Below are positions 17,935-46,552 of a stretch of DNA of 64,000 nt, piece by piece. Made by a program: the position numbers and the translations under genes. The notes beneath the pieces are model-generated. The model was not told the origin of the DNA and did no database searches. It saw only the letters and a program-made list of their open reading frames with translations. The stretch's first letter is position 1. Every line of letters begins with the position of its first letter. This DNA comes from Christiangramia flava JLT2011. Its GTDB lineage: Bacteria > Bacteroidota > Bacteroidia > Flavobacteriales > Flavobacteriaceae. The stretch covers positions 2,566,001 to 2,630,000 of the forward strand of contig NZ_CP016359.1 in the NCBI RefSeq assembly GCF_001951155.1. Reading direction: 5' to 3'.

Positions 17935-19983
17935 TTATTTATACGGAAACTGCTGGTTTCGCTGCAACCTGTATCTCAGGGAAAGGCCAAATTCGGTAAA
18001 AGAAAAACCGAGTGCGGTGGCTGAGGCCATGCTGCTGTGATTTCCGAAAAGTCCGCCGCGCCAGCTTTTGCTGAAATCATACAAAAAATTAGCCTGGAAA
18101 CGATAGGTTCCCTGCCGGGCCTGTTCCTCGATGAACTGATATCCCAAAGCGGCGGTCAGGTCGTACTGGAAACGCTGCTCGTTATCTGACTGAACCAGAT
18201 TCAGGAAAATTTCTGCCGACTGGTATTGACCGGGACTGAAATACAGCTTGGGTCGCTGCTCCTGAAAGCTGATGTACTGATAATTGATTCCCAATTTAAG
18301 TTTTTTCAATAACTGGTAATAAAGTGAGGAATAGAGGAGGTTGCGCTGGTTCTCATCGCTCAAAGAACTGGTCTGGAACTGGAAATACCAGCCTAATCCC
18401 AAAAGACTTCGGTAATGATCGCTGATAAAAAAGTGGTTACCAACCAATCTTTGCTGTAGCAGGTCGGCATTGAAATCCTGCACGTCGCGCCGGTAACCCA
18501 GGCTCAAATGATTCCTTCGGAAATAAGCAATTTGGGTGGAGATTTCCCCGATCATGGCGGTGTAAGGATCTTCGGTTTGTGCCTGCATCAAGCCGCCTTT
18601 CAGCTGAAAGGAAACAGGAATAGGCAGTCGATATTCAGCAGCTATGCTCAGCTGGTTCGATTCAGCTGAATTTGGAAGAGCATTATTTTGGGTATTCCGA
18701 TAAGTATAATTTCCGCCGATGGAAAATCTGGAATTTAAAGGCCACTTTACAGTTGTATTCAAACTAACCGACTCATTGTGGCCATTGTCAAAACTGTAAC
18801 GGCTGGTTTCTGAAATTTCGGGTTGATAAAGCTCCTCGATCTTTTCCATTAGTTTTTGGGCGTCGCTCTGGCCGGGAAATAATTTCAGGGTCGCAATACC
18901 GGCATTTTTGGCCGCGGCAATATTGCCATTGGCAAAATAGGCATTGGCCAGCCCCAGGTTCGCATCAAAAGAGGAAGTCTCGGTTCTTAAAATTTCCCGG
19001 TAATCAGCAATGCTGCTGCGGAAATCCCCGGTGTACATCCCGTATGCGGCATGCAGCGCCAGAACCTGATTGGTATTTCCGTAGTTTTCCTGAAGCTGGC
19101 CAATCATTTTTTGCGCTTTTTGATAGCGCGCATTCCACAATAGCGCCTGGACAAGACGCTCCTGCGCCCGCCATACCAAAGTGCCATCTTTTTCAGTTTT
19201 GGATTTCAGAAAGGCATTTTCGGCATGATCGAGCGCTTTATTTTCCTTCTTTTCTTCATGATAACAGAGTGCGATACCCAGGTGCGCCAGGATGCTGTCT
19301 TTGCGCGTCACGGCCATTTCCTTGAATGAATGGATCGCTGAAGAAGTTTCCTTCTGCAACAGGTAAATATTGGCCTGGCTCAGTAAACTCTCCTGGTCGC
19401 CTGGAAATTGCGCAAGGTTCTCCTGTAAAATTTTCAGTGCATTGATATACAGTTTTTCCTGACTCAGGGAATAGGCTTTTCCCAGCCTGATATATTTCAG
19501 GCTGTTGAGTGCGCCCGGATCATCAGTTTGTAGCTGGAGCGCCTTTTGGATCCATTCCTGGGCCGGGCCGTATTTTTTAAGATTGCTAAGGCTGTTCGCA
19601 TAGCCCAGCATTAGCTTAAAATCTGGTTCATTTTCCTGGATCATTTCGGCATAATAATGCTCAGCGGCTTCATAATCTTTGTTCCAGATCAGCGATTCGG
19701 CATAATTCAACTGTACTTCCCGATCTTCAGGATGGTTTTGAAGCAATTTAAGGAAGATCTCTTTCGCTTCGGAAGGACTGGAATCTAATCCCACCGATCT
19801 TCCGTAGCAGATCGTGGCGGTCTTATTTTCAGGGTTTTTCCGAAGGATTTCTGCAAAAAAGCTCTTCGCGCCCGCGAAATCTCCCGCCTCCATTTTTTCA
19901 AAACCCTCGGTCATTTCCTGGGCCCAAATAAACTGCGGCAAAAGTACCAGTAAAGTGAGGTATAATAAGCGTCGTATACACAT
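17935..19983 (-). CDS. Outer-membrane TPR plus beta-barrel protein, putative EPS export porin
   Basis: A 682-residue exported protein. A signal peptide ends near FIWAQ (about residue 21). Residues about 25-385 are repeated helix pairs with TPR-like spacing, for example EKMEAGDFAGAKSFFAEIL, ESLIWNKDYEAAEHYYAEM and ANAYFANGNIAAAKNAGIA. From about residue 400 to the end the sequence switches to alternating polar/aromatic strands and ends SLRYRL plus a short tail, typical of an outer-membrane beta-barrel. TPR scaffold plus barrel is the plan of exopolysaccharide exporters such as PgaA, BcsC and PelB, and of YaiO-type barrels. Divergent flippase and GT genes support an EPS export role. I cannot assign it to a named family with certainty, and it could be an EPS-associated scaffold rather than the pore. 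Confidence 0.78.
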   Translation of the reverse strand: MCIRRLLYLTLLVLLPQFIWAQEMTEGFEKMEAGDFAGAKSFFAEILRKNPENKTATICYGRSVGLDSSPSEAKEIFLKLLQNHPEDREVQLNYAESLIWNKDYEAAEHYYAEMIQENEPDFKLMLGYANSLSNLKKYGPAQEWIQKALQLQTDDPGALNSLKYIRLGKAYSLSQEKLYINALKILQENLAQFPGDQESLLSQANIYLLQKETSSAIHSFKEMAVTRKDSILAHLGIALCYHEEKKENKALDHAENAFLKSKTEKDGTLVWRAQERLVQALLWNARYQKAQKMIGQLQENYGNTNQVLALHAAYGMYTGDFRSSIADYREILRTETSSFDANLGLANAYFANGNIAAAKNAGIATLKLFPGQSDAQKLMEKIEELYQPEISETSRYSFDNGHNESVSLNTTVKWPLNSRFSIGGNYTYRNTQNNALPNSAESNQLSIAAEYRLPIPVSFQLKGGLMQAQTEDPYTAMIGEISTQIAYFRRNHLSLGYRRDVQDFNADLLQQRLVGNHFFISDHYRSLLGLGWYFQFQTSSLSDENQRNLLYSSLYYQLLKKLKLGINYQYISFQEQRPKLYFSPGQYQSAEIFLNLVQSDNEQRFQYDLTAALGYQFIEEQARQGTYRFQANFLYDFSKSWRGGLFGNHSSMASATALGFSFTEFGLSLRYRLQRNQQFPYK

Positions 19984-20030
19984 GGTTGCTGTTGTTGGTT
20001 TTGACTATTGGCAAGTTAAAACCGGAAGGC

Positions 20031-20083
20031 TGATATTTCATCTACAGAAAATGGTCACCCGTCGAAAGGTTTTGATATTTCAT
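20031..20083. repeat. Direct repeat TGATATTTCAT in divergent intergenic region
   Basis: TGATATTTCAT occurs at 20031-20041 and again at 20073-20083, 42 bp apart, inside the 168-bp gap between the outer-membrane TPR protein (-) and the flippase gene (+). The spacing is close to four helical turns, so both copies would face the same side of DNA. The rest of the gap holds no gene, and I see no convincing TTTG-N19-TAnnTTTG promoter on either strand. Confidence 0.35.
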
Positions 20084-20151
20084 TGGAATTCGGAAGATAT
20101 TGCTGCCAGATTCGAGTGGTAAAGTGCTCGGGAAATTAAAAAACCAATACC

Positions 20152-21384
20152 ATGATCGCTTTAAATAGATTGAGAATCAGATCTTTATTTGTTCCTGCAC
20201 GAGTTTTTATGGTCAGCGCCATGCTGGTGAACGCCGGGAATTACCTTTATAACTTACTGCTTAGCCGAATACTGGGCCCGGCCAGGTTTGCTGACGCCGC
20301 TATTCTGGTAACTTTCTTACTGGTCTTATCCTTTGTGGCCATGACGTTGCAATTAACGGTAGCAAAATTTACCGGTAGTTTTGAAGATGGCAGAAAAGAT
20401 ACTTTTTTGTCGCTTGCCCGAAAATGGTCATTATGGACCGGGTTTGTGATCGGCGTGCTGGTTTTTGTACTGGCCGAGTCGCTGGCCGGTTGGTTCCAGA
20501 CAGGCTCTGCGTGGATGTTCCGGATTTTCGCGCTCGGAATTCCCATTTATTTCCTGATGAGCGTGAACCGCGGTAATTTTCAGGGTGAGCAGGAATTCCT
20601 GAAACTCTCTTTTACCTATCAGGCAGAAATGTTCAGCAGGCTGCTACTGAGTTTGCTGTTTCTGGCGGTTTTACCTTTTGGAAGCTCAGAACTGGTCGCC
20701 TTGGGAATTTTCTGCTCGTTTATTCCGGGTTTATTGCCTTATAAAAAATTAAAACTCTCAGCGCTTCCCAAGATGAATATTTCAGAAGTGGCGCACCTGA
20801 AGAAATTCCTGCTGGTAACCGCTTTTTATGAACTCACCCAGATCCTCATCAATAATGGGGACCTGTTACTCGTAAAACATTTTTTTGAAGCGGAAACTGC
20901 CGGCCTTTATGCCTCTGTCGCACTTATTGGTCGTGGCGTTTATTTCGTGGCCTGGATGTTTGTGATGCTGCTCCTGCCGGAAGTTGTGCGATTACAAAGA
21001 CAGGGAAAGAATACCAATGACGTTCTGTTCAAACACCTTTTTAACATCAGTTTACTGGGTGCCGCTATTGTGTTGGTTACCTATATTTTTCCGGAACTCG
21101 TCATTTCGATGCTGTTTGGGGATGCCTATCTGGAAGCCGCAGACATTCTCTGGAAATATGCGCTGGCCAGTTTGCTTTTCGCGCTCGCCAATATTTTTGT
21201 GTATTACTTTTTATCCCTGGACCGTTACGTTCCCGTTCTGTTATCGGGGATCATGGGATTAGTGCAGTTACTGGCCATCAGTTACTGGCATGGCAGCCTG
21301 GCTGCGGTAGTGCATATTCAACTACTGCTGATGGGTGTACTGTTATTGCTGCAGGTGTGGTTTTTCTTCTACCGAAATAAGTAA
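20152..21384 (+). CDS. Polysaccharide flippase-like membrane protein (Wzx/MATE type)
   Basis: A 410-residue inner-membrane protein with about 11-12 hydrophobic segments and the look of the MOP (MVF/MATE/Wzx) exporter superfamily. It opens with helices containing NAGNYLYNLLLSRILGP, the helix-1 pattern typical of Wzx-like flippases, followed by FVAMTLQLTVAKF and repeated pairs of helices with a second-half block LLVKHFFEAETAGLYAS that mirrors the first-half pattern. Wzx proteins move undecaprenyl-linked oligosaccharides across the inner membrane. It is followed after 89 bp by a GT4 glycosyltransferase, and its divergent neighbour is the TPR/beta-barrel protein. The flippase, GT4 and TPR-barrel combination recalls pelG, pelF and pelB by architecture only. 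Confidence 0.8.
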   Translation: MIALNRLRIRSLFVPARVFMVSAMLVNAGNYLYNLLLSRILGPARFADAAILVTFLLVLSFVAMTLQLTVAKFTGSFEDGRKDTFLSLARKWSLWTGFVIGVLVFVLAESLAGWFQTGSAWMFRIFALGIPIYFLMSVNRGNFQGEQEFLKLSFTYQAEMFSRLLLSLLFLAVLPFGSSELVALGIFCSFIPGLLPYKKLKLSALPKMNISEVAHLKKFLLVTAFYELTQILINNGDLLLVKHFFEAETAGLYASVALIGRGVYFVAWMFVMLLLPEVVRLQRQGKNTNDVLFKHLFNISLLGAAIVLVTYIFPELVISMLFGDAYLEAADILWKYALASLLFALANIFVYYFLSLDRYVPVLLSGIMGLVQLLAISYWHGSLAAVVHIQLLLMGVLLLLQVWFFFYRNK

Positions 21385-21473: not shown

Positions 21474-22664
21474 ATGAAACTCGCTATTGTTACGGCTTTA
21501 CCACCCAGTAAGGTCACGCTGAATGAATATGGTTTCCACCTCGCCAAACATTTCGCTCAAAAGGAGGAAATCGAAGAACTGATCCTCATCACCGATAAGG
21601 TCCGGGAACCAAGGCATTTTGATTTTGATACTGGCAAGGTAACGCTCATCGAAGCCTGGAAGTTCAACAGTTATAACACCCTTTTTTCAGTTTCAAAAGC
21701 CATCCGCAAGTCGGGTGCTGATGCGGTGCTGTTCAACCTGCAATTCATGAAATTTGGGGATAAAAAGGTTCCCGCTGCGCTGGGACTGATGCTTCCCATG
21801 ATGTGCAGGTTCCAGGGTATTCCGAGCATTACTTTGCTGCATAATATTCTGGAGCAGGTGGATCTTGGACAAGCTGGTTTTACGGAAAACCGAATTCTGA
21901 AATTCCTTTTTAACCAGATTGGGACTTTCCTGACGCGCCTTATTTTGCAGTCGGATAGAGTGGCGCTGACCATCGGGAAGTATGTAGAAATCATTTCCGC
22001 AAAATATCAGGCAAAAAATGTGATTCTAATGTCTCACGGCTCTTTTGAAACCCCGCCAGCTCCAGATTTTGATATTCCTGAAGGCCCCAAAAAGGTAATG
22101 TGTTTTGGCAAATTCGGCACGTATAAGAGAGTGGAACTGATGATTGAAGCCGTGGAAGAATTGCGGCAGCGAACGAACCTGGATCTGGAGATTGTCATTG
22201 CCGGAACTGATAGCCCCAATACGCCGGGTTATCTTCAGGAGATGAAAGAAAAGTACGCGATGGTCCAAAATATCGAGTTTACCGGATATGTAGCAGAAGA
22301 AGAGGTGCCGAAAGTTTTTACTGAAAGTGCTGTGGTTGTTTTTCCCTATACGGCAACAACCGGCAGTTCCGGGGTTTTGCACCAGGCAGGAAGCTATGGG
22401 AAAGCAGTGGTAATGCCTAATTTGGGCGATCTCGCGCTGCTGGTGGAAGAAGAGGGCTATGCAGGAGAATTTTTCGAACCTGGAAATGTTGCTTCTTTAG
22501 CCAGGTCGCTGGAAAATATCCTGAAAAATGAAGAATATCGCAGAAGCCTGGGAGAAAAGAATTATGCGGCCGCCTGTAGTTTACCGATGGAAACGATCGC
22601 CCAAATGTATCTCGAAGAATTTAAATCATTACGGAAACAGAAACTCAAGATAAAATATGTTTAA
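21474..22664 (+). CDS. Glycosyltransferase family 4 (GT-B)
   Basis: A 396-residue retaining glycosyltransferase with the two-domain GT-B layout. The N-terminal domain begins MKLAIVTALPPSKVTLNEYG and holds the acceptor-side loops. The C-terminal domain contains KVMCFGKFGTYKRVELMIEA (the GT4 K/R-rich donor loop), NIEFTGYVAEEEVPKVF, VVFPYTATTGSSGVLHQAG and EGYAGEFFEPGN, the last being the E-x7-E-like donor-binding region. It probably adds one sugar to a lipid-linked EPS unit in the cytoplasm. Donor sugar is unknown. It lies downstream of the flippase gene in the same direction and ends at a strong bidirectional terminator shared with the convergent GH5-like gene. Confidence 0.85.
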   Translation: MKLAIVTALPPSKVTLNEYGFHLAKHFAQKEEIEELILITDKVREPRHFDFDTGKVTLIEAWKFNSYNTLFSVSKAIRKSGADAVLFNLQFMKFGDKKVPAALGLMLPMMCRFQGIPSITLLHNILEQVDLGQAGFTENRILKFLFNQIGTFLTRLILQSDRVALTIGKYVEIISAKYQAKNVILMSHGSFETPPAPDFDIPEGPKKVMCFGKFGTYKRVELMIEAVEELRQRTNLDLEIVIAGTDSPNTPGYLQEMKEKYAMVQNIEFTGYVAEEEVPKVFTESAVVVFPYTATTGSSGVLHQAGSYGKAVVMPNLGDLALLVEEEGYAGEFFEPGNVASLARSLENILKNEEYRRSLGEKNYAAACSLPMETIAQMYLEEFKSLRKQKLKIKYV

Positions 22665-22671: not shown

Positions 22672-22700
22672 AAAAAGTCCGCTCGAATGCGGACTTTTTT
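22672..22700. terminator. Bidirectional intrinsic terminator
   Basis: AAAAAGTCCGC (22672-22682) and GCGGACTTTTT (22689-22699) form a perfect 11-bp stem with a TCGAAT loop. The T-run to 22700 serves the GT4 gene on +, and the A-run on the left gives a T-run on - for the GH5-like gene, whose stop codon overlaps the right arm. Confidence 0.9.
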
Positions 22701-24252
22701 ATTGCTTATGAATTACGCAGAAGCTCGCTTTAGGGGTTCCCTGCGCATCGATAACGCCAAAATGTTTTTGCTTGGCTTTTCGCCATACTTGCTTTCCAAC
22801 TACTGAATTAGGGATTTCTTTAAAATCATACAGTGTCCAGAACAGGCTGTAAAGTTGCTCTTCTTCTAAGACTTCGTTCATGGCTGCATAATACTCCTGC
22901 TGATCTTCTTCGGTGTTGCCGAAGGGATCCCAGAATCCTTTATAACTCGACAAACCAAACTCCTCCAGTATGAGAGGTTTTTGCACTTTCTTCCGAAGAT
23001 TCTTGAGTTCTCCGGAAAGTGCTTCAGGTTTCCCATAATAATGAAAACTCAAAAGGTCCATATTTTCCTGAAGCAGGCTGGCATTTTGAGGCTTTCCCCA
23101 GCCAATGGTAACCAGGTGATTGGGATCGGCCTGCTTCACCTCGCGACTCAGATGCTTCAGCCAGTTTAAGATGCGGATCTTTCCGCGGGAATCAAAATCC
23201 AGGTCCGGTTCATTTTTCAGGTCCCAGGCGAGTATCGCGGTATGATCTTTAAAATGCCGGGTAATTTGCCTCGCGTGGGCATAGGTGAAATTCCAGTCTG
23301 TTACCGAGTAATCTCCGTAAAAATCGAAAAGGGTCACGATCACTTTCAGGGAGTGTTTATCTGCCAGGTCTAACAGAGTTGCCAGTTTTTCCAGTTTTTC
23401 GGGCAGTACATGTTCTTTTCCGAAGTCTTCATATTGAAGAAAAATCCGAATCGTGTTCAAACCCAGTTGCGAAATAATCTGAAGGTCCTGATCGATCTCC
23501 TCTTGGCTGAAATGTAGCCCGAAAGTATCCCAGGCGCCGTCTTTCGGGTAGTAATTAACGCCTTTCAGCTTAAATTCTTCCTTCCACCAGTAAAGCTTGC
23601 CATCGCGAATTTTCCAGGTACTGATAGCCGGTTTTCTCGGGGCTGGGGTTTGCTGGGCTTCTTCCCTGACCATATGTCTCACGCGCCAGTAGCCGTCTTC
23701 CAGTAACATCAACACCTCGTAACGGGAAGTATCCATGCTGGTAGCGATCAGTTCCTCATTGAGAAAACTTTCCTGGTAAGTGACCACATTTTCATCGGTA
23801 AAACTCACCAACTGCCCGTCTGTGCTATAAAAATTCAGTTTGGGTTGATGGTAGAGGCTGGTAGATTTGATCACCACCCCGGTCTTTTTGTTGAATTCCA
23901 CATTTTTCAGCAGGTTCACGCGTGCACTGTCCGTAAAATAATCAGCGATGCCATCCTGCGATAGGTGATTCAGGGCGAAGTTTCGCACCTGCCAGGAATG
24001 CAGGTAATCCCTTTCGATCTTCTGAAGGTTGGGCGATTCCATTTTTCGGCCTTCATAATTGCTCGTATCCCAGGCTATTTTAGGCCGGTAAGATGTCTCA
24101 TTCCGCTTGCCGGAGTGGAAGATGCTGCTTTTATCGGCACCGCTATTCAGGAAACCCAGCACCGAACTGAGCCCGAAAATGATCATGGCGTTGACCGCCA
24201 GAAAACTGAAGATCAAAATTCCTCTGTACATATTTTTACTTGGTTTTTTCAT
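22699..24252 (-). CDS. Membrane-anchored GH5-like glycoside hydrolase
   Basis: A 517-residue protein with one N-terminal membrane helix (about residues 10-33, RGILIFSFLAVNAMIIFG) and the rest outside the cytoplasm. Residues about 70-190 form an NTF2-like alpha+beta domain (WQVRNFALNHL, DGYWRVRHMVRE). The TIM barrel follows from about 215 with KLKGVNYYP, LGLNTIRIFLQYEDFG, acid/base Glu348 in AWDLKNEPD and nucleophile candidate Glu431 in LILEEFGLSS, the clan GH-A pattern. It may trim or release the EPS made by this locus, as many EPS clusters carry a hydrolase. The ATG at 24252 is used because it opens with MKKPSKN before the helix; the longer reading to 24354 only overlaps the upstream gene. 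It overlaps that gene by 17 bp. Confidence 0.8.
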   Translation of the reverse strand: MKKPSKNMYRGILIFSFLAVNAMIIFGLSSVLGFLNSGADKSSIFHSGKRNETSYRPKIAWDTSNYEGRKMESPNLQKIERDYLHSWQVRNFALNHLSQDGIADYFTDSARVNLLKNVEFNKKTGVVIKSTSLYHQPKLNFYSTDGQLVSFTDENVVTYQESFLNEELIATSMDTSRYEVLMLLEDGYWRVRHMVREEAQQTPAPRKPAISTWKIRDGKLYWWKEEFKLKGVNYYPKDGAWDTFGLHFSQEEIDQDLQIISQLGLNTIRIFLQYEDFGKEHVLPEKLEKLATLLDLADKHSLKVIVTLFDFYGDYSVTDWNFTYAHARQITRHFKDHTAILAWDLKNEPDLDFDSRGKIRILNWLKHLSREVKQADPNHLVTIGWGKPQNASLLQENMDLLSFHYYGKPEALSGELKNLRKKVQKPLILEEFGLSSYKGFWDPFGNTEEDQQEYYAAMNEVLEEEQLYSLFWTLYDFKEIPNSVVGKQVWRKAKQKHFGVIDAQGTPKASFCVIHKQ

Positions 24253-28400: not shown

Positions 28401-28503
28401 GTGCATCGTAGGTTTGTTCCAGGGTAAAGATGATCGTAGCCGAATGGAAAATCACTCCTATCAGCAGGGCAGCAATCAGGTATTTATTGGAGGTTTCCCT
28501 CAT
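25426..28503 (-). CDS. Large GT-C-like multi-pass membrane protein with C-terminal extracytoplasmic domains
   Basis: A 1025-residue inner-membrane protein. Residues 1 to about 395 hold around ten membrane helices with a GT-C look: after helix 1 the first outer loop has QTYDALIHLFFAEHY with an Asp in the place of the GT-C catalytic acid, and later GYPPLVHQCIALL. A soluble stretch at 410-535 resembles that of YfhO/6-PTPS-related membrane proteins. Two more helix regions follow at about 545-570 and 600-630, then an NTF2-like domain near 640-760 (TKAYYDAIDFKEFERAHSYI) and C-terminal beta-rich segments. GT-C enzymes use polyprenyl-phosphate sugars, and the divergent neighbour encodes a Dpm1-like enzyme that could make one. 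Start codon ATG at 28503; a near-consensus promoter precedes it. Confidence 0.72.
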   Translation of the reverse strand: MRETSNKYLIAALLIGVIFHSATIIFTLEQTYDALIHLFFAEHYASNWFEPWNYKWYTGFTVMGYPPLVHQCIALLSYIGGLKFGLFTVAVLAVILFISGVYRFSLLFSGNRKVAGYASLLAVFSSSFIETLHIFGQLPSIVGISLLLHALPEIYLYIKNGRKIVLFRAISLIAVTVTSHHVTPIFGMIFFIFPLIGMVIMDRAKEVTGTYKFISLRLFLNVFRKLFARIVLFGMSALGTIIFCILPYWINTRNNPITQVPIPHGSRDNFLEVTSSGLVFFLIPWGLLLLFIPYFFYRFYSRRYLFFGLSFTMLLVLGTGGTTPLPRILLGENAFNILTLDRFTLWASIMALPLFGEFAYRFSEADLKTFIQQRFGSVYHRVLGALLVGSFLSISVFSISLGHFRPMQPQAIKMLPIINFLNQDQHDHWRFLTLGFGDQMAWLSAQTTAVSVDGNYHSARRLPELTSRAVERLENSKYRGVEGLGSLQQFVTVPEKYHLKYIFSNDKFYDPLLYFSGWQRLQQLENGIMVWERMNVPPMPKILTREDLPVILKLMWGITPVFTILLAFFLNLQLLWYHSLKTGNPRRPDFLNFGRIYPKFNGKLFRMVQLWWGLMLFLVLLMGYFVYVHNTAQLSAENVTKAYYDAIDFKEFERAHSYINPEDHKSLAQFMLEVSVTDGLLSSYAKLDSLAVRIRPVSENEAVASVYSSWITPLKKIEKHREHHLVKIGRSWFISADELDPDLPPDQLFSQNQTAYYNHGRRKISTQQTYHEDVLKQPLLQVLSARLVKKGTHFSIVGEIQNIDQVPADVTIQASLYDEQHLELASYNAGKVMKHKLMPKEVTSFRVDFERIAWVRKDENLPETFNPDEFAEITFNRNPVSFQLRCSGNVATKDLYKSVVLQKLEQDRQTLSGELFNYGIQEVTIPQLLLSYYDAQQNLLWVEEKFVDDGVRVQRKQGFQLELPKLQEIKLVTNSMQQVYVNGLPNTEIAKRYSHFQNLAQLPLQELENGIFLKIELNNYIGNTP

Positions 28504-37938: not shown

Positions 37939-40900
37939 ATGCCACTACTTCAGCTACTACCTCTTTCGCAGGGCGAAAAGATTATTTCTGAAAATCCGTC
38001 GCTGCTGAACAAGCTTACCTCCATGCCTGTTTGTGGCATCTGGTTGCAACCTGAGCTTCAGGAAAATTCCCTGTGGATCAGTGATTCCTTCTGGAATTTC
38101 ATGGGCTACGGAAATAAAGACGAACATAGCCGAAGAGAAAGTCTGGAAGCTGAAGCGCTTTCAGTTTTAGAAGATGTGAGGGCAAATATTCACAAAGAAG
38201 AATTCCAGTTCAAGAAACGTTTTCCATCGGGTGACGGAAACGGATTATTGGTGCGGGTCATGGTCCAAAAAGTGGCATTTCACCAGGGAACCGGCATTTT
38301 ATACCGTTTTCAGCGATACGAAGCAAAACTGAACCCGGGTGATAAACAAGAATCTTTTCAGGACCTGATCAAGATTTTCAATGAAACCAATGAGCTGGCC
38401 CGAGTGGGGGGCTGGGAACTGGACCTGGTGAGCGGGAAGCTATCCTGGACCCGGATGACCAAGGAGATCCACGAGGTTCCGGCCGATTTTGTGCCCGATC
38501 TGGAAAAGGGCATCTATTTCTACAAAGAGGGCTGGAGCCGGGACAAGATTTCCGGGCTGGTACAGGAAGCTATTGAAAACGGGAAATCCTGGGATGCTGA
38601 ATTGCTTCTGGTAACGGCTAAAGGGAAGGAGATCTGGGTGCGTGCCATGGGAAAACCCGAATTTCAGGAAGGAAAATGCGTGCGTTTGTATGGTGCTTTC
38701 CAGGATATCAATCGCCAGAAAATAGCTGAACTTCAGTATAAGACCACCCGGGAACGGTTTGAAAAGATCTTTCAGAATTCCTCACTGGGAATTATCCTGG
38801 TGCATATAGAAGGTCATTTGATCCTGGCAAATCCGGCGAGTTTGAAAATATTCGGTTTCAAAGAAGCAGAGCTGAATGATGCTTTGAACCTCACCTTTAA
38901 AGACCTGATCCATCCTAATTACCTTAAGGAAGCGGTGAGATATCGCCAAAAACTGGTGAATGGGGAGATCGAAAATTACCAGATGGAAGCCAGATTCTTC
39001 AAAATAACCGGTGAGGAGATCTGGTGCAGGCTAACGACCTCCATCGTAAGAGGAGAAGCCGGGATGGAAGACCTGATCATTAGCCAGGTAGAAGATATTA
39101 CCGAGCGCATGCAGTTGCAGATGAAGGCCAATGAAAATGCCAAACGCTTCATGAGCGCTTTTGAATACTCGCCAAACGGGATGGGCGTGGTAAGCATGGA
39201 GGGCGAATGGCTGATGGTGAACCAGAACCTGGCCAACATGTTTGGCTACACGAAGGAAGAGTTCGTGAATAAACGTTCCAGCGAACTAACGCATCCTAAA
39301 GACCTGAAAAAAGATTCCGAGCAGTTGCAGGCGTTGATCAATCTTGAGATTGAGACTTACAGTGTAGAAAAGCGTTTTATTCATCAGTCGGGAAGGATCA
39401 TCTACGGCATGCTGTATGTTTCGGTGATCGTGGATGACGAGGGTAAACCTTTGTACCTTATCGGTCAAATTGCCGATCTTACCAAAAGGATCCTTTCGGA
39501 AAGGGCGCTTCAGAAGAGTCTGGATGAATTCCAGGGGTTGATGGATGCCACCACCAAAGTGTCGATCATGGAAACCGATCTGGACGGCGTGATTCAGAAG
39601 TTCAACAAGGGGGCAGAAAATCTTTTAGGTTACACTGCGGAAGAGGTCGTAGGAAAAATGAATGTTCTCGCCATTCATACCGATGAAGAGATCAAGGAAC
39701 GCGATGAGCATCGGGAAAAATTTTACGATGCAGAGTGGACCTATAAGAGGAAGGATGGCTCCACTTTCCCGGTAAAACTGGCCATTACGCCCATCAAAAA
39801 TCATAAAGATACCATCACCGGATTCTTAGGAGTGGCCATTGATATTTCCAATTTAAAGGAAATGGAATATTCCCTGCGAGAAGCGCGCAAAAAAGCGGAA
39901 GCCGCGAACCAGGCAAAATCTGAATTCCTGGCGAATATGAGTCACGAAATCCGGACGCCGCTCAATGGGATCGTTGGTTTTACAGACCTTCTCATGCAAA
40001 CCAGCCTGGACACTTCCCAGGAAAAATACATGCAAACGATCAATAATTCCGCAAATACCTTGATGGATTTGATCAATGATGTCCTGGATTTCTCCAAGAT
40101 CGAAGCCGGAAAACTGGAGCTGAGCGAGGAACGAACCGATCTGATCCAGCTTTGCGGGCAAACCGTAGATATGATCAAGCACCAGGCGCACCAGAAAGGC
40201 CTGGAGGTGTTGTTGCAGATTTCGCCAAACATCAGGCGATATGTGTATGTAGACGCCGTTCGCTTGCGGCAGATCCTGATCAATTTGCTCGGAAATGCGG
40301 TGAAATTTACCCACGAGGGAGAAGTTTCGCTAAGTGTACTGTCTACCAATCTCGATCATGATGAGGATGAAGTGGTCTTTAAATTTGAAATTCGGGACAC
40401 GGGAATTGGAATTGCCCGGAAAAACCTGGACAAGATCTTCAACGCCTTTGACCAGGAAGATGCTTCAACAACCAGGAAATATGGTGGAAGTGGCCTTGGC
40501 CTGACCATTAGTAACCGACTCCTGAATTTGATGGACAGCAAACTGAATGTGTCCAGCGTCCTGGGCCAGGGCAGTACTTTTTATTTCCATGTGAAACTCA
40601 GGACCGAACAGGAGATCAACTTTGAGACCCGACCTATTAAAGACATTCGCAAAGTATTGATTGTGGATGACAATGATAATAATAGGGAAATTCTGAAGCA
40701 AATGCTCGCAGTGAATAAGATTGAGACCGTTTTGAGCCCAAATGGAATTGATGCGCTGAACAAACTGAAGGATCACGAGGATTTTGATCTGGCCATCATC
40801 GATTTCAATATGCCGTATCTCACCGGAATTGGCCTGATTGAACAAATCAGGAACAACTATCAGCTGGATGCCGATAAGCTTCCCGTGATCCTCTTACATA

Positions 40901-41454
40901 GTTCTACGGAAGATGAGATGATCCAGAAATCCTGCAAGGAGCTGGATGTGGCTTTTAATGTGACCAAACCTATCCAGATCGCGCAGTTATATGAACTGAT
41001 TGAAAATATTGAAGAGCCTTTAAATGTCAAAGCGGTGATTCCGGAAGAGGAATTTAAGAATACCGCTGAAGAATTCAGGATCATGATCGTGGAAGATAAC
41101 CCGGTAAACCGTTTCCTGGCCAATACCATCATTCAAAAAGTAGTGCCGAACGCGTTGATCATTTCTGCGGAAGACGGGGAGGAGGCCATCGAGAAATTTC
41201 GGGAAAATAAACTGGACCTGATCTTTATGGATATACAGATGCCCGTTCTGAGTGGACTGGAGGCTACGGAAGAAATTCGTAAAATTGAGAAAGAAAATTC
41301 TCACACTCCGATCATTGCTCTTACCGCACGCGCCCTGAAGAATGAGCGCGAGAAATATCTAGCCCGCGGGATGGACGATTACCTTACAAAGCCCGTCGTT
41401 CTTGAGGATGTTAAAGAGGTAATATTTAAATTTTTAATTAAGGAAAAGCCGTAA
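37939..41454 (+). CDS. Soluble hybrid histidine kinase with five PAS and two receiver domains
   Basis: A 1171-residue hybrid kinase with no membrane helix or signal peptide, so it senses inside the cell. Domains in order: a divergent PAS (about 20-125), PAS 2 (145-265), PAS 3 (275-395), PAS 4 (400-520), PAS 5 (530-645); HisKA with phospho-acceptor His669 in NMSHEIRTPLNG; HATPase_c with LINLLGNAVKFT, FEIRDTGIGI and GGSGLGLTIS; receiver 1 with Asp955 in IIDFNMP; receiver 2 with Asp1098 in FMDIQMP and KP near the end. Two receivers and no Hpt of its own mean it needs separate Hpt proteins, and two are encoded in the locus (29905, 41614). The direction of phosphate flow to the receiver-GT2 fusion, the lone receiver and LytTR is inferred from proximity. 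Confidence 0.92.
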   Translation: MPLLQLLPLSQGEKIISENPSLLNKLTSMPVCGIWLQPELQENSLWISDSFWNFMGYGNKDEHSRRESLEAEALSVLEDVRANIHKEEFQFKKRFPSGDGNGLLVRVMVQKVAFHQGTGILYRFQRYEAKLNPGDKQESFQDLIKIFNETNELARVGGWELDLVSGKLSWTRMTKEIHEVPADFVPDLEKGIYFYKEGWSRDKISGLVQEAIENGKSWDAELLLVTAKGKEIWVRAMGKPEFQEGKCVRLYGAFQDINRQKIAELQYKTTRERFEKIFQNSSLGIILVHIEGHLILANPASLKIFGFKEAELNDALNLTFKDLIHPNYLKEAVRYRQKLVNGEIENYQMEARFFKITGEEIWCRLTTSIVRGEAGMEDLIISQVEDITERMQLQMKANENAKRFMSAFEYSPNGMGVVSMEGEWLMVNQNLANMFGYTKEEFVNKRSSELTHPKDLKKDSEQLQALINLEIETYSVEKRFIHQSGRIIYGMLYVSVIVDDEGKPLYLIGQIADLTKRILSERALQKSLDEFQGLMDATTKVSIMETDLDGVIQKFNKGAENLLGYTAEEVVGKMNVLAIHTDEEIKERDEHREKFYDAEWTYKRKDGSTFPVKLAITPIKNHKDTITGFLGVAIDISNLKEMEYSLREARKKAEAANQAKSEFLANMSHEIRTPLNGIVGFTDLLMQTSLDTSQEKYMQTINNSANTLMDLINDVLDFSKIEAGKLELSEERTDLIQLCGQTVDMIKHQAHQKGLEVLLQISPNIRRYVYVDAVRLRQILINLLGNAVKFTHEGEVSLSVLSTNLDHDEDEVVFKFEIRDTGIGIARKNLDKIFNAFDQEDASTTRKYGGSGLGLTISNRLLNLMDSKLNVSSVLGQGSTFYFHVKLRTEQEINFETRPIKDIRKVLIVDDNDNNREILKQMLAVNKIETVLSPNGIDALNKLKDHEDFDLAIIDFNMPYLTGIGLIEQIRNNYQLDADKLPVILLHSSTEDEMIQKSCKELDVAFNVTKPIQIAQLYELIENIEEPLNVKAVIPEEEFKNTAEEFRIMIVEDNPVNRFLANTIIQKVVPNALIISAEDGEEAIEKFRENKLDLIFMDIQMPVLSGLEATEEIRKIEKENSHTPIIALTARALKNEREKYLARGMDDYLTKPVVLEDVKEVIFKFLIKEKP

Positions 41455-41613: not shown

Positions 41614-42309
41614 ATGAATAACGAATTACCAGTTTCATTGCTGTATATAAGCTCGGCTGACGAAAACAATGAATTAGTCGATAAACTGCAAAAAGATAAC
41701 GTGCAGTATTTACAGCTTTCCAATAGTGTAGAAGCAATCCAGTTCCTGCAAATGAACGAGGTTTCCGCTATTCTTATCGAACATCCGGTGGCACCTGTAA
41801 GTACAGAGGATACCGTTTCTTTTATCCACCAGGAATTAAGCCTTGGTGTGCCTTTGTATCTGTATCGGTTTACGGGGGACGAAGATCGGTTGCCAGAGCA
41901 ACAGGGAAGTTTTACCCTGCTCGACGATGATCTTCAAAATACCGATTTTCAGGAGCTGCTCAAACAATTACAGCAAACCAGCCAACCAAAAGATTATTCT
42001 TTAAATTATCTTAAAAAGGTTTCAGATAATAACCAGGAGTTTATATTGCAGTCTTTACAGATCTTTGTAGACTCGGTGAAAAAGAACCTCGACGAGGCAG
42101 AAAAGGCGTTTGAAAGTGGAGATTTTGAAAAAGTAGGTGGAATCGCGCATGCGATAAAACCTTCCTACGAAATGCTGGAAAATCAGGAAGCTCCGGCGAT
42201 CTGTGATGCGTTGACTTACCATCGACAGCAGGAAAATATCCCTTTTCAACTTTCAGAACTCAGGAGGATCTATGAAACCATCACCTCCCAATTAGGGAGT
42301 CATTTATGA
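41614..42309 (+). CDS. Degenerate receiver fused to Hpt domain
   Basis: A 231-residue cytosolic protein. Residues 1 to about 120 follow the receiver fold (VSLLYISSADENNELVDKL, SAILIEHPVAP, VPLYLYRF) but lack the acidic pair, and the phospho-acceptor Asp position is a Glu-His, so it cannot be phosphorylated in the usual way. Residues about 128-231 form an Hpt domain with the phosphorylatable His179 in IAHAIKPSYEML. The inactive receiver probably acts as a docking module for the hybrid kinase or a partner receiver. The gene is followed 6 bp later by a lone receiver gene, then the HEAT and GT2 genes, apparently one operon. I infer that it passes phosphate from the kinase at 37939 to that receiver. 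Confidence 0.78.
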   Translation: MNNELPVSLLYISSADENNELVDKLQKDNVQYLQLSNSVEAIQFLQMNEVSAILIEHPVAPVSTEDTVSFIHQELSLGVPLYLYRFTGDEDRLPEQQGSFTLLDDDLQNTDFQELLKQLQQTSQPKDYSLNYLKKVSDNNQEFILQSLQIFVDSVKKNLDEAEKAFESGDFEKVGGIAHAIKPSYEMLENQEAPAICDALTYHRQQENIPFQLSELRRIYETITSQLGSHL

Positions 42310-42315: not shown

Positions 42316-42681
42316 ATGAAAAGAATATTGGTGGTAGAAGACAACCCGATGATCGTGAAATCTCTTGAATTCAAGCTTCGGCAGGAAGGCTATGAAGTGC
42401 TGGTAGCACAGGATGGCCGCCAGGGAGTGGAATTGATGGAGAATAACGAGATAGATTTGTTGCTTACAGATTTGATGTTGCCGTTCGTAAATGGCTTACA
42501 GCTGATCGAACAGGCAAAGCAAAAAGACCCTGACCTTCCCATTATCGTGCTATCCACTTCGAAACAGGAGAATATTATCATGGATGCCTTTAATCTGGGA
42601 GTGGAAGATTTTATAACGAAGCCCTTTAACCCAAATGAACTTTCTTTGAGAGTAAAAAGATCTTTAAGAAACGCAGATTAA
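42316..42681 (+). CDS. Single-domain response regulator (receiver)
   Basis: A 121-residue stand-alone receiver with all key residues: the acidic pair in VVEDNP, phospho-acceptor Asp in LLTDLMLP (about residue 52), Ser/Thr in VLSTS and Lys in FITKPF. There is no output domain. It sits 6 bp after the Hpt gene and 30 bp before the HEAT-repeat gene. Such CheY-like proteins act by binding partners; the nearby HEAT membrane protein or the GT2 synthase is the natural candidate, giving post-translational control of polysaccharide synthesis. Confidence 0.92.
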   Translation: MKRILVVEDNPMIVKSLEFKLRQEGYEVLVAQDGRQGVELMENNEIDLLLTDLMLPFVNGLQLIEQAKQKDPDLPIIVLSTSKQENIIMDAFNLGVEDFITKPFNPNELSLRVKRSLRNAD

Positions 42682-42711: not shown

Positions 42712-43725
42712 TTGAATGACTATATTAACACCGTTTCCAACGGCGAACTGATCCTGCACGTGAATTTATTTTTCTCAGTGTTCTTTTCCCTTGTAGCATT
42801 ATTGCTGGTGGGAACGATCCTTTACATGCGGTATCAGAAGCTGAGAGAAAACCGTAAAATTCAGAAGCGGCGGGAGATCCTGTCAGATTTTATGATGCGG
42901 TATCTTTTTGAAAATCCTAATGATGAACAGGCAATAGAAGCTCACCAGCCACAAAACAACCTGCAGCTGCGAACCGCCGTGCAGGTGATCATGGAGTTCG
43001 TGGATAATTTCAAGGGTGAAAGCCTGGAATTACTGAGAAAACTCTTTTACGCCTGGCGACTTCAGAAATACGTTCAGCATAAATTGCAAAGTAAATTGTG
43101 GTACGATGTGGCACAATCGATCTACATTTCTTCCGAATTGAAACTGGAGGAAATGCGCGAGCACGTAGTGAAACACACCAATTCAACCAGGAAAGATATC
43201 AGGCAGCAGGCGATCTTTTACCTCATTAATATGGCGCAGGAAAACCCATTATCCTTTCTTCATCAGGTAGATAAGCCATTGAGCGTATTTGAGCAGATCT
43301 ATATCAAAGACTGTATGGATACTCAGTATACGGGCGTCATCCCGGAATTTGGGGAATACCTCGAGCATCCACTGGAAAGTGTACAGATTTTTGCTTTAAA
43401 AATGATTGCGGAGTATAACCAGTTCGAAAGCATTGGGGAAATTCTTCCTTTTTTGGAGAGCGAGCGTGAAGAACTGCGCATCGCTGCTATTGAAAGCCTT
43501 TCAAAACTGGAATACCCGGAACTGAGTGAACGTATTGAACAAAAACTGCCTTTGGAAAAAGCCTCGGTTCGAAGCCACATTCTCAGAAACCTGAAAAGAA
43601 AATACAGTTTGGGAGATTTTCAGAATCTGGTGGGGTTAATTCCGGAAACCGACTATAAAAACCGGGTTTTACACTTCAATTTGGCCAATAGCCTGCGGAA
43701 AGAATCTAAAAAATTATATATTTAG
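42712..43725 (+). CDS. Membrane-anchored HEAT-repeat protein beside EPS synthase
   Basis: A 337-residue protein with one N-terminal membrane helix (about residues 18-41, FFSVFFSLVALLLVGTILYM) followed by a basic stretch (KLRENRKIQKRRE), so the bulk faces the cytoplasm. The rest is alpha-helical with HEAT-like repeats, clearest at about 155-175 (RKDIRQQAIFYLINMAQE), 220-235 (LESVQIFALKMIAEY) and 245-275 (EREELRIAAIESLSKLEY). The start is TTG at 42712, the first start codon that includes the helix. It is followed 34 bp later by the GT2 synthase. It probably forms a scaffold that couples the response regulator upstream to the synthase; the interaction is inferred. Confidence 0.78.
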   Translation: MNDYINTVSNGELILHVNLFFSVFFSLVALLLVGTILYMRYQKLRENRKIQKRREILSDFMMRYLFENPNDEQAIEAHQPQNNLQLRTAVQVIMEFVDNFKGESLELLRKLFYAWRLQKYVQHKLQSKLWYDVAQSIYISSELKLEEMREHVVKHTNSTRKDIRQQAIFYLINMAQENPLSFLHQVDKPLSVFEQIYIKDCMDTQYTGVIPEFGEYLEHPLESVQIFALKMIAEYNQFESIGEILPFLESEREELRIAAIESLSKLEYPELSERIEQKLPLEKASVRSHILRNLKRKYSLGDFQNLVGLIPETDYKNRVLHFNLANSLRKESKKLYI

Positions 43726-43759
43726 TTTTTGAACGAACGGGGGCACAAACATTGCTGTA

Positions 43760-45184
43760 TTGGAATTATATCAAATAGTAGAAATAGCCAACTGGCTATT
43801 TTTAATTTTTGGAATCGTCATTTGTCTGGGGTATACACTTGCGGCCATTTTCTCCTTCCTGGAAATTCGCGATTATAAAAGAAGAATTCGTTTCCAAACG
43901 GAAACCCCGTTGTTGCAAAGTTCAGACCTGCCTTCAGTTTCTATTTTAGCACCCGCCTTTAACGAAGAAACGAACGTGACCGAAAATGTGCGTTCGCTGC
44001 TCAATTTGAATTATCCTAATTTTGAGATCGTCATCATCAATGATGGGAGCAAGGACCGCACCCTCGAAAAACTGATCAAAAAATACGATTTGGAACCCGA
44101 TAAATTTTATTACCACCAGTTCGTTCCCACTAAAGAGGTCAGGGGCGTGTATCGCTCAAAAAACAAATCTTTTAAGAATCTCAAGGTTATTGATAAGGAA
44201 AACGGCGGAAAGGCAGACGCCCTGAACGCCGGGATCAATTGTGCTGACCATGAGATCATTTGCTGTATAGATGTAGATTGCGTGTTACAGCAGGATGCTT
44301 TGCTGAAGCTGATCAAACCCTTCCTGGATAGTGAAGAAAAAGTGATCGCTTCGGGTGGAATAATTCGTGTGGCGAATAATTGCATTATTGAGGATGGCCG
44401 GCTGGTAGATATCAAACTTCCGGACACCTTCCTGGCGAGGGCGCAGATCATTGAATATTTCCGTGCTTTCCTGATGGGGAGAATGGCATGGTCCCATTTA
44501 GACGGATTATTGCTCATTTCCGGCGCTTTCGGGATGTTTGATAAGGAAACGGTGATCGAAGCAGGTGGTTATGATGCCAGTACGGTTGGCGAGGATATGG
44601 AATTGCTGGTTCGCATGCGACGGATGATGCGTGAACAAAAGCAGAAATATCGCGTTGGTTTTGTACCAGATCCTTTATGCTGGACAGAAGTGCCGCAAAG
44701 CTGGAAGATCCTGCACCGCCAGCGTAACCGATGGACCCGTGGTACTGCGGAAACCCTTTACATTCACCGCAAGATGCTTTTTAATCCGAAATACAAGGTA
44801 CTCGGAATGCTAAGTGTGCCTTACTGGTTATTTTTTGAATGGATGGCACCACTCATTGAATTCCTCGGGATTTTTTACGTGTTTTTTCTTTTGTTTTTCA
44901 GTGGGATCGATCCGGTAGTATACCTCATATTTTTCATAACGGTCTATTCATTTGCCGTCTTATTTTCCATTACAGCCTTATTCTTTGAGGAATATTCCTT
45001 TCAGCAGTACAAAAAACCGAAATACATTCTCAAGCTGCTGGCGACGATTATTGTAGAACCACTTTTTTTCCATCCCTTTGTGATGTTTGCAGCCGTAAAA
45101 GGAAATATTGACCTTCTCCGTGGTAAAAAGAAGTGGGGAACCATGCAACGAACCGGTCTCAACCGGCAGGAACAATCCACTTAA
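43760..45184 (+). CDS. Processive GT2 polysaccharide synthase (PgaC/cellulose-synthase-like)
   Basis: A 474-residue membrane glycosyltransferase. A membrane helix at about 9-33 precedes the catalytic domain with ILAPAFNEE, Asp95 in INDGSKDRT, NGGKADALNAG, Asp171/Asp173 in CIDVDCV, catalytic base Asp279 in VGEDMEL and QRNRW at 321-325, the acceptor/product-binding motif of processive synthases. Three or four helices follow from about 350 (YWLFFEWMAPLIEFLG, PVVYLIFFITVYSFAVLF). This is the layout of hyaluronan, PNAG (PgaC) and cellulose-like synthases, which polymerise and translocate at once. There is no PilZ domain, so c-di-GMP control is not evident and the adjoining phosphorelay may replace it. 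TTG at 43760 is the start, as no ATG gives the first helix. Confidence 0.9.
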   Translation: MELYQIVEIANWLFLIFGIVICLGYTLAAIFSFLEIRDYKRRIRFQTETPLLQSSDLPSVSILAPAFNEETNVTENVRSLLNLNYPNFEIVIINDGSKDRTLEKLIKKYDLEPDKFYYHQFVPTKEVRGVYRSKNKSFKNLKVIDKENGGKADALNAGINCADHEIICCIDVDCVLQQDALLKLIKPFLDSEEKVIASGGIIRVANNCIIEDGRLVDIKLPDTFLARAQIIEYFRAFLMGRMAWSHLDGLLLISGAFGMFDKETVIEAGGYDASTVGEDMELLVRMRRMMREQKQKYRVGFVPDPLCWTEVPQSWKILHRQRNRWTRGTAETLYIHRKMLFNPKYKVLGMLSVPYWLFFEWMAPLIEFLGIFYVFFLLFFSGIDPVVYLIFFITVYSFAVLFSITALFFEEYSFQQYKKPKYILKLLATIIVEPLFFHPFVMFAAVKGNIDLLRGKKKWGTMQRTGLNRQEQST

Positions 45185-45262: not shown

Positions 45263-45303
45263 ATTAATCCATATAATGAGAGTAGGGCATCATTGGGATT
45301 AAT
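45263..45303. promoter_or_regulatory. Inverted repeat upstream of LytTR gene
   Basis: ATTAATCC (45263-45270) and GGATTAAT (45296-45303) are perfect 8-bp arms separated by 25 bp in the 158-bp gap between the GT2 synthase and the LytTR gene. There is no T-run, so a regulatory role is more likely than termination. The rest of the gap is AT-rich without a clear promoter. Confidence 0.35.
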
Positions 45304-45342
45304 CTGCCTGTCTTTCAGATATGTAAACTACGGTTGCATATA

Positions 45343-46065
45343 ATGAAATGTATCGTGATAGATGATGAGGAACTGCCACGCGTAGTGCTGCGTCAGCTTA
45401 TAGAGAACATACCAGATCTTCAGTTAGAAGGGACTTTTAACAGTCCGCTTCAGGCTATTCGTTTTCTGAATCAAAATGAGGACGTGCAGCTTATTTTTCT
45501 GGATGTGAATATGCCGGGATTCAGTGGCTTTGATTTTATTCAGACCCTGAAAACTATGCCCGCGGTCATACTGGTAACTGCAGATAAAGAACATGCCATT
45601 ACGGCTTTTGAATATGAAAACGTGGTGGATTATTTGCTTAAACCAGTCCAGAAAGAACGATTTTAAATTGCTGTTCAAAAGGCTTTAAAGTTAGCGCGGA
45701 AGGAAAAAAAACTCCGGGAAGTTTACCAGAAAGAAAGCGCTGAAAACGCTGAAAATGAGCAGCTTTACGTTCAGAGTGAGAAAAGGCTCATTAAAATTGA
45801 TATTGAGGATATTAAAATCATCGAAGCCAAGGGCAACTTCATTTTGATCAAAACCACGAACGGTAATCACATTACCTACTCCAGCCTGAAAAAGATCGAA
45901 TCCAAACTTCCGCAGGAAAGCTTCATGAGGGTACATCGTTCGTATCTTATCAATTTCAAAAAGATCGTGGATATCGAGGATAACAGTGTCCTGATTGGAA
46001 AGGAAATTGTTCCCATCAGCAGGCGGTTCAAGCCACAGCTAATGGAACGACTCAACCGTCTTTAG
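45343..46065 (+). pseudogene. LytTR-family response regulator interrupted by one in-frame stop
   Basis: Residues 1-107 (45343-45663) are a receiver: IDDEELPR, Asp in FLDVNMPGFSG, VTADK and LLKPVQKERF. A TAA at 45664-45666 follows at once, and the same frame continues without any other stop to TAG at 46063-46065, encoding the linker and a full LytTR DNA-binding domain (EQLYVQSEKRLIKI, IKIIEAKGNFILIKT, MRVHRSYLINFKKI, VPISRRFK). The normal protein would read across the stop: the receiver's last helix resumes as IAVQKALKLARKEKK. One base change, for example AAA to TAA, explains it. No ATG lies between the stop and the LytTR domain; a TTG at 45844 would cut the domain. It is a recent nonsense mutation, a sequencing error or, less likely, read-through. 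ATG 45343 is used rather than TTG 45334. Confidence 0.85.
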
Positions 46066-46149
46066 ACTGTTTATCTTACCGGTTTTACCGCTTATCATCT
46101 AAACGCCACCGCTCATATAATTTTCATAAAAAAACCTTGAATTGCGAGT

Positions 46150-46229
46150 TAAATTTGGGATAAGTACGACACTCAGAATATACTTCTGAAGTTGGGGCGC
46201 CCTACACCGCAAGCTTGTCGTACTTTTTT
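46150..46229 (+). promoter_or_regulatory. Promoter -7 element and structured leader or small RNA
   Basis: TAAATTTG (46150-46157) fits the Bacteroidota -7 element, though no good -33 is seen. From the expected start near 46164, AAGTACGACA (46162-46171) pairs perfectly with TGTCGTACTT (46216-46225), enclosing two small palindromes, ACTTCTGAAGT and GGGCGCCC, and ending in a six-T run (46224-46229). This could be an attenuator leader of the STAS gene at 46250, a small RNA with its own terminator, or the terminator of the LytTR gene. Confidence 0.4.
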
Positions 46230-46249
46230 AGCTGACAAGTATGTGAATT

Positions 46250-46552
46250 ATGATAGAGATTTTTACTCAAGGGCATCAAGTAAAATTGAATGGTCAAATT
46301 AACTCAGAGAACGTTTCTGAAGTTGAAAAACAAATTGATGATCTTTTAGATACTTACGAAGGGGTAAGTTTGGATCTTAATGACATTTCCAGCATAGATA
46401 CCTGCGGGTTCTTTATGCTGTATGTGGTACAGCAACGGGCGCTGCTCCACGGTAAAAAAGTGGAGATTGAGTGGGCCACGAATGACATGATCAAGAAGCA
46501 CGCGGCAGGCAGCCAGTTATCTTTTCTGTTTGGTAGCTTAAAATTAGTTTGA
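46250..46552 (+). CDS. STAS-domain protein, anti-sigma-antagonist-like
   Basis: A 100-residue stand-alone STAS domain (SpoIIAA/RsbV fold): HQVKLNGQINSENVSEVEKQ, then GVSLDLNDISSIDTCGFFML, and the C-terminal helix around residue 80. In canonical antagonists the loop reads D-S-S-G with the phosphorylated Ser third; here it is Asp50-Thr51-Cys52-Gly53, so the usual serine is a cysteine and phosphorylation, if any, would be on Thr51. It may be a non-phosphorylated scaffold. STAS proteins act in partner-switching with kinases and phosphatases; none is nearby, but the gene closes the phosphorelay locus. A structured leader precedes it and a hairpin follows. Confidence 0.85.
   Translation: MIEIFTQGHQVKLNGQINSENVSEVEKQIDDLLDTYEGVSLDLNDISSIDTCGFFMLYVVQQRALLHGKKVEIEWATNDMIKKHAAGSQLSFLFGSLKLV

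Follow-up and report, generated by a model that had tools for sequence, protein, structure and literature searches.

A receiver-HEAT-GT2 gene trio in Christiangramia flava as a candidate phosphorelay-switched polysaccharide synthase

The best-known synthase-dependent exopolysaccharides, namely cellulose, poly-N-acetylglucosamine (PNAG) and the product of NfrB, are switched by cyclic diguanylate (c-di-GMP), which leaves the question of how bacteria lacking c-di-GMP control enzymes of this kind. It is raised by a stretch of 64,000 nucleotides from Christiangramia flava JLT2011 (NZ_CP016359.1, positions 2,566,001 to 2,630,000; hereafter the window, in whose numbering all coordinates are given unless a locus is named). 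A first-pass annotation had read positions 17935 to 46552 of the window as one exopolysaccharide system under its own multistep phosphorelay, with phosphorylation replacing c-di-GMP as the control of polymer synthesis. We find that this 28-kb stretch is two adjacent cassettes, A (17935-33946) and B (37939-46552), which are separately inherited in the genus, and that the core of cassette B is a trio of receiver, HEAT and family 2 glycosyltransferase (GT2) genes that recurs widely. We propose, with a probability of about 0.6, that cassette B encodes a surface-polysaccharide synthase of the hyaluronan/chitin-synthase-like kind that would be switched by a phosphorelay via a membrane-anchored HEAT scaffold. 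The genes of cassette B are as follows.

37939..41454, + strand: cytosolic hybrid histidine kinase (Pfam: PAS repeats, HisKA, HATPase and two receivers; no transmembrane (TM)-like segments)
41614..42309, + strand: Hpt protein with a degenerate, receiver-like N-terminal half (Pfam Hpt, 24.6 bits, equal to the cut-off)
42316..42681, + strand: lone receiver (Pfam), phosphorylation site complete (D9, D52, K102)
42712..43725, + strand: membrane-anchored HEAT protein (Pfam HEAT_2; TM-like segment at residues 11-41)
43760..45184, + strand: membrane GT2 synthase, hyaluronan/chitin/cellulose-synthase-like (Pfam GT2)
45343..46065, + strand: receiver-LytTR regulator, split by an in-frame stop codon (TAA, 45667-45669)
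46250..46552, + strand: STAS-domain protein (Pfam STAS)

The route from kinase to receiver to Hpt to receiver is an established phosphorelay scheme, and all of its parts are present in cassette B: histidine kinase, receiver, Hpt histidine and final receiver aspartate (the kinase residues were judged by eye). The Hpt site of 41614 ([IV]AHxIKPS) keeps its His and Lys in 6/6 aligned sequences, window included, and D9, D52 and K102 of the lone receiver are invariant in 18/18. The order kinase-Hpt-receiver-HEAT-GT2-LytTR-STAS is complete in all four HEAT-bearing congeners that were fetched, where the kinase is kept at 52-90% identity and the STAS gene adjoins LytTR at 37-42% identity. Nearly all of the genes that the first-pass annotation had named in the 28 kb were confirmed by family searches, and of its relay parts the kinase, the lone receiver and the STAS protein stand as described. 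The remaining parts are less clear-cut, as the Hpt match of 41614 only reaches the cut-off, that of a second Hpt-like protein (29905, in cassette A) falls below it, and the LytTR gene is interrupted. What had been listed as a pseudo-receiver is the N-terminal half of 41614, for which no Pfam match was found.

The GT2 (43760) has intact catalytic motifs: D95, DxD at residues 171-173, ED at 278-279 and QRxRW at 321-325 are invariant in 17/17 aligned sequences, and four TM-like segments (3-37, 357-375, 376-398 and 423-441) are laid out as in membrane processive synthases. The motif test for such synthases (DxD, ED and Q(Q/R)xRW with flanking TM helices) places it among them. Its closest named relative among the matches listed is a GT2 of Gillisia hiemivivida (67% identical). 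A sequence search of solved structures returned 16 distinct sequences, each over short aligned stretches of the GT2 domain. For the HEAT protein, the structure model (predicted local distance difference test score, pLDDT, 91.4; predicted template modelling score, pTM, 0.82) has a helix at residues 11-66 and then helical repeats at 72-327, so that, as modelled, a TM helix leads into an alpha-solenoid. In a Foldseek search of the PDB its top matches are ARM/HEAT-like solenoids, both designed and natural, with low TM-scores (0.22-0.44 by query length).

Is this gene arrangement particular to C. flava? In the window, receiver, TM-HEAT and GT2 genes lie close together on one strand with the GT2 last (42316-45184). 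Searches of 148 Bacteroidota genomes with the HEAT protein gave a set of 29 loci, window included, in which GT2 adjoins HEAT in 29/29 and a receiver gene lies within the four upstream same-strand genes in 24/29. Because this earlier set was picked by HEAT, a fairer count was made on loci selected by GT2 only: the GT2 alignment was searched against genomes of 84,980 species and the best 80 of at least 399 relatives were taken, less one (L111) without a GT2 gene by our labels. In these 79 loci, HEAT is among the first two same-strand upstream genes in 67, a receiver gene is within four such genes in 57, and both hold in 52; the background in the same loci is 11 receiver genes among 421 genes lying more than five genes from GT2. 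With gene starts set mechanically, the HEAT-GT2 gap is -8 to +15 bp in 53 of 69 pairs, and the receiver-HEAT gap is below 50 bp in 31 of 40 adjacent pairs. The HEAT protein was matched in 21 of the 148 Bacteroidota genomes by single-sequence search and in 73 by profile search, where many matches are weak and partial and 23 reach E<=1e-39.

HEAT and GT2 are also found as natural fusions, in L119 (HEAT_2 over cut-off) and L114 (HEAT_2 below cut-off); a third fusion, L116, has no HEAT match, and its N-terminal half aligns with those of L114 and L119. Folding used an alignment from which single HEAT proteins were excluded (A6), and a combined alignment of HEAT, GT2 and fused proteins (A5), which misplaced the single HEAT proteins on the GT2 part, was left unused for this purpose. 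The L119 fusion model has a pTM of 0.80 over 950 residues, and a Foldseek search with the modelled fused relative ranks hyaluronan synthases first and lists cellulose and chitin synthases lower. The receiver gene beside the fusion starts with a metallo-beta-lactamase/ODP-type domain (by Pfam in L119, by eye in L114).

The core trio is widespread and occurs in several phyla. The trio or its fused form was found in records labelled Bdellovibrio (L092), Bacillaceae (L089, L110), Clostridium (L101, L114), Paenibacillus (L112, with the receiver after GT2), Myxococcota (L099), Gemmatimonadetes (L082, L109, L117), Terriglobia (L102), Sphaerochaeta (L119) and Pseudohongiella (L118); many of the loci outside Bacteroidota are metagenome bins, whose taxon labels may be wrong. 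The synteny that the first-pass annotation had proposed to check is conserved for receiver, HEAT and GT2 and reaches beyond Bacteroidota. Kinase, Hpt, LytTR and STAS accompany the trio in the four congeners, and the TPR-barrel gene that had been grouped with them belongs to cassette A.

The receiver nearest GT2 has Asp at its phosphorylation site in 63 of the 67 loci where it is bare and in 8 of the 14 where it belongs to a multi-domain protein. Outside Bacteroidota, 11 neighbouring receiver genes (picked by their receiver label) all have the receiver at the C-terminus; 6/11 carry GGDEF, and Hpt is matched in two, in one case below cut-off. When 13 such genes were scanned for motifs, L089 alone had a GGDEF-type signature, so that 5/6 of the GGDEF domains seen look degenerate. 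As these proteins all end in a receiver and vary in GGDEF, the constant partner among these loci is the receiver and not the c-di-GMP domain. The two inputs, phosphorylation and c-di-GMP, may nevertheless be historically linked, since other phyla often fuse the same receiver to GGDEF (6/11 scanned).

The absence of PilZ, GGDEF and EAL domains noted in the first-pass annotation was borne out at every level searched. Family searches found none among the products of the 28-kb stretch, and the 4.0-Mb genome of C. flava gave zero matches for each of the three, with control genomes positive. Across the 148 Bacteroidota genomes, PilZ was found in 0, EAL in 5 and GGDEF in 80; within the window's class (presumably Bacteroidia, with membership taken from the genome listings of the HEAT searches), GGDEF was found in 1/37 and PilZ in 0/37 sampled genomes. 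Of the 23 genomes whose HEAT match reaches E<=1e-39, three have GGDEF (G004, G093 and G097, all outside the class), and neither EAL nor PilZ was matched. The idea that phosphorylation replaces c-di-GMP in this lineage may hold in part: genome content and the phospho-Asp of the bare receivers are consistent with it.

Our reading of cassette B as phosphorelay-switched draws on the intact catalytic and phosphorylation sites, the gene content and its conserved order, the solenoid model of HEAT, the HEAT-GT2 fusions and the lack of PilZ, GGDEF or EAL matches. Phosphate would flow from the soluble PAS hybrid kinase to its own receivers, from there to Hpt 41614 and finally to the lone receiver 42316, this direction being the expected one. 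The receiver would then bind the HEAT protein at its cytosolic alpha-solenoid, and this TM-anchored protein, sitting on the GT2 synthase, would turn polymer synthesis on or off; we infer these last steps from gene order, the constancy of the trio and the lack of an output domain. The GT2 product would be an exported polysaccharide, and LytTR and STAS could form a second branch, either slower or of the partner-switching type. Whether this extends to the trio at large is an even bet: receiver-HEAT-GT2 could be a general, as yet unnamed class of polysaccharide synthase in which the membrane-anchored HEAT scaffold reads a receiver as the switch of the synthase, the receiver being bare and phosphorylatable in the window's class and the C-terminal domain of larger, often GGDEF-bearing proteins elsewhere, so that a single scaffold may take in both phosphorylation and c-di-GMP signals.

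Many relatives in Bacteroidota have two further genes near the trio. One encodes an LtaS/sulfatase-like membrane protein (L023, the one member tested, matches PF00884), which in some cases forms a fusion with the GT2; the other encodes a YaiO-type outer-membrane barrel (all four members tested exceed the TIGR04390 cut-off). C. flava itself has a paralogous locus at 3.05 Mb of its genome (L039), 0.45 Mb away, with the full set including YaiO and LtaS-like partners, and the sole YaiO match of the genome lies there. In L031, L032, L034 and L036, a GT2-LtaS/sulfatase-like fusion of 1134-1260 aa adjoins HEAT, and in three of these four loci a receiver is present as well, together with a receiver protein of kinase-like type that is about 1300 aa long. 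A further family, “C9” (L039, 5585-6745), lies close to the trio in loci from Bacteroidota, Bacillaceae and Myxococcota; it has a DKTVP-like N-terminal motif by eye, and three members tested gave no Pfam match.

Cassette A forms a system of its own, with a receiver and a GT2 joined in a single protein. Its genes are listed below.

17935..19983, - strand: TPR protein with a C-terminal barrel-like region, candidate outer-membrane exporter (TPR and a weak BCSC_C match)
20152..21384, + strand: MOP-superfamily flippase-like protein (PF13440; 9 TM-like segments)
21474..22664, + strand: GT4 glycosyltransferase (PF00534)
22699..24354, - strand: TIM-barrel glycoside hydrolase, GH2_C-like (PF02836, E 9e-12)
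24236..25429, - strand: Ig-like secreted protein (Invasin_D3, sub-threshold only)
25426..28503, - strand: GT-C-like multi-TM protein (PF10131, sub-threshold; 8 TM-like segments)
28678..29901, + strand: receiver fused to a cytosolic GT2 (Response_reg and Glycos_transf_2; no TM-like segments)
29911..30249, + strand: Hpt-like protein, named at 29905, adjoining the receiver-GT2 gene (Hpt 18 bits, under the Pfam cut-off)
30361..31455, + strand: ManC-like GDP-mannose pyrophosphorylase (TIGR01479, 281.8 bits, cut-off 372.95)
31502..33946, + strand: DUF4114 protein with a type IX secretion system (T9SS) sorting tail (PF13448, TIGR04183)

The start of the receiver-GT2 fusion is most likely 28678, the open reading frame start at 28294 being too early by eye. 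When searched against 120 genomes of the family (E<1e-130), the fusion had full-length relatives in 24, own genome included, and 20 of these were taken as cassette A loci (leaving out the own genome, G000, and G194, G208 and G252). Around it, GT4, hydrolase, Ig-like and GT-C genes are each found in 19/20 loci (not in L182), the flippase in 18/20 and the TPR-barrel gene in 11/20, where each locus spans 20 kb and several end short of the outer genes. ManC lies near cassette A in three of four congener loci (L191, L192 and L193). The DUF4114 cargo is close by in L190 and L193, and L191 shows a match of 25 residues to it. The Hpt-like protein 29905 is an uncertain member of the cassette: its His/Lys pair is kept by eye, and a homologue (36%) occurs in one of the 20 loci (L182), beside LytTR and kinase genes. 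LytTR relatives lie near cassette A in L171, L182, L192 and L193. In L169, L173 and L178 (by score) and L174 (by eye), cassette A itself contains one or two STAS-like genes, between the TPR-barrel or GT-C gene and the flippase. This had suggested that the LytTR and STAS genes of the window are parts of A, a reading rejected because four congeners place both in B. Directly after the receiver-GT2 fusion, L166, L169, L173 and L174 have short GT2-like open reading frames (96-164 aa).

Could all genes from 17935 to 46552 nonetheless form a single exopolysaccharide system with one relay? Everything lies within 28 kb here, and the STAS-like and LytTR genes in or near cassette A of other genomes would fit such a system. 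The distribution of the two cassettes in the genus argues strongly otherwise. Among 20 congeneric genomes, own included, the GT-C protein of A (E<=1e-50) is present in five and the HEAT protein of B (E<=1e-20) in five, each alone in three; only the own genome and G271 have both. In G271, the two are on different contigs, HEAT 124 kb from the start of one of 1.07 Mb and GT-C at the beginning of the other, and compared with the own genome, HEAT is 98% identical whereas GT-C is 68% identical. In G246, cassette A maps to 3.11 Mb and cassette B to 1.57 Mb, about 1.5 Mb apart, and neither HEAT nor its GT2 was detected in any of the 20 cassette A loci (tblastn E<=1e-4, 20 kb fetched). The single-system version of the first-pass annotation is thus largely refuted, and we consider it highly improbable.

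Two further explanations concern cassette B on its own. The relay could act on transcription only, the lone receiver being a shuttle or sink between kinase/Hpt and LytTR, and HEAT a constitutive assembly factor for the GT2. LytTR is indeed part of cassette B in 4/4 congeners fetched, and lone receivers can serve as phosphate shuttles, as does Spo0F. We regard this as unlikely, given that the receiver sits just before HEAT with the short gaps described above and that in other phyla the trio occurs with no LytTR noticed among the genes read (LytTR was not searched for there). Alternatively, the GT2 could make a short glycolipid or modify a surface lipid, to which the LtaS/sulfatase-like partner found in relatives would add groups of the phosphoglycerol type. 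This would account for the LtaS/sulfatase-like genes in many relatives, some of them fused to GT2, and for a PgaC score of only 160 of the 422 bits needed; yet the TM layout and QRxRW motif are those of processive synthases, the fused relative is structurally closest to hyaluronan synthases, and the YaiO-type outer-membrane barrels that lie near the GT2 in relatives argue for export, which leaves the glycolipid explanation doubtful. Several observations count against a phosphorelay-switched synthase as well. The phosphorylation site is Glu in 3/67 and Gly in 1/67 bare receivers, and Glu in 6/14 multi-domain ones. The receiver is not always close, being absent from the four upstream same-strand genes in 22/79 GT2-selected and 5/29 HEAT-selected loci, and 12/79 loci lack HEAT by our labels (three of them are the fused HEAT-GT2 proteins, which were scored as HEAT-less). 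The loci are related to one another and not phylogenetically independent, and the placement of the domains in the fusion model is only suggestive, since the pTM came without an error matrix. In this strain the LytTR branch is probably broken by the in-frame TAA; four congeners (L188, L194, L195 and L196) have LytTR copies with no internal stop over the matched part. Finally, no YaiO or LtaS-like gene lies next to cassette B in the window, so that its exporter must be shared or borrowed; the TPR-barrel protein of cassette A is a candidate for this role.

Between the two cassettes lie two genes:

34008: aldo/keto reductase
35000: GalB-type beta-galactosidase (1452.7 bits, cut-off 900)

Upstream, 219-17921 is a run of arabinose/arabinan-use genes by eye (beta-L-arabinofuranosidase-like, arabinose isomerase-like, ribulokinase-like, transaldolase and SSS transporter).

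How do the cassettes compare with known systems? PgaC is the top curated NCBIfam model for the GT2, which recalls PNAG synthesis (PgaABCD/IcaADBC); however, the score of 160.1 compares with a PgaC_IcaA cut-off of 422.3, the TPR protein 17935 scores 24.4 against the PgaA cut-off of 366.65, and no PgaB or PgaD match was listed among the 20 products scanned. With respect to cellulose synthesis, the GT2 lacks the PilZ of BcsA and scores 48.5 bits against 699.1 for TIGR03030. The TPR protein 17935 was also considered as a YaiO and dropped, since the family search listed no YaiO-domain match; PgaA and BcsC are far under cut-off. Pel (PelA-G) has a TPR barrel, a MOP flippase-like protein, a GT4 and a hydrolase, and cassette A holds similar part types; in contrast to Pel, it also includes a GT-C protein and a receiver fused to a GT2, and it has no PelD. 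Ten A-side products gave no match to any Pel family (PelF, PelG and PelD among them) at E<=0.01, only general GT4 and Polysacc_synt_3 matches. In Escherichia coli K-12, the uncharacterised yaiP-yaiX-yaiO has a GT2 near YaiO, as in many relatives of B, but no receiver or HEAT gene is annotated there, and YaiP shares 24% identity with the GT2 of the window across 233 aligned columns. To our knowledge, the syp locus of Vibrio fischeri relies on other synthesis machinery and has no receiver-HEAT-GT2 trio. It is reported to resemble B in its two-component input and lone STAS protein (SypF kinase, SypE, SypA STAS; PMC4517449, PMC12369376), and differs in that the regulator gene here is LytTR. E. coli NfrB is a single membrane GT2 with its own regulatory module, switched by c-di-GMP via a C-terminal MshEN domain, and has a TPR outer-membrane partner, NfrA (PMC8669469). 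The candidate regulators of B are instead HEAT and a phosphorylatable receiver, with no MshEN, PilZ, GGDEF or EAL in the cassette; no MshEN match was listed for the GT2, which has only about 33 residues after its last TM-like segment. On these family tests, we rejected PNAG, cellulose, NfrAB and Pel as identities for B.

No homologue turned up as part of a named exopolysaccharide pathway in the literature searched, and no description of the receiver-HEAT-GT2 trio was found in the open-licence literature, where text searches cannot prove novelty. Other membrane GT2 synthases are known to have regulators of their own, but we know of none with a receiver beside a HEAT scaffold. The core trio is smaller and far more widespread than the 28-kb unit first proposed. 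For bacteria without c-di-GMP, a three-gene receiver-synthase unit found in several phyla would offer a direct, testable answer to how such synthases are switched, and a starting point for studying how Bacteroidota form their matrix.

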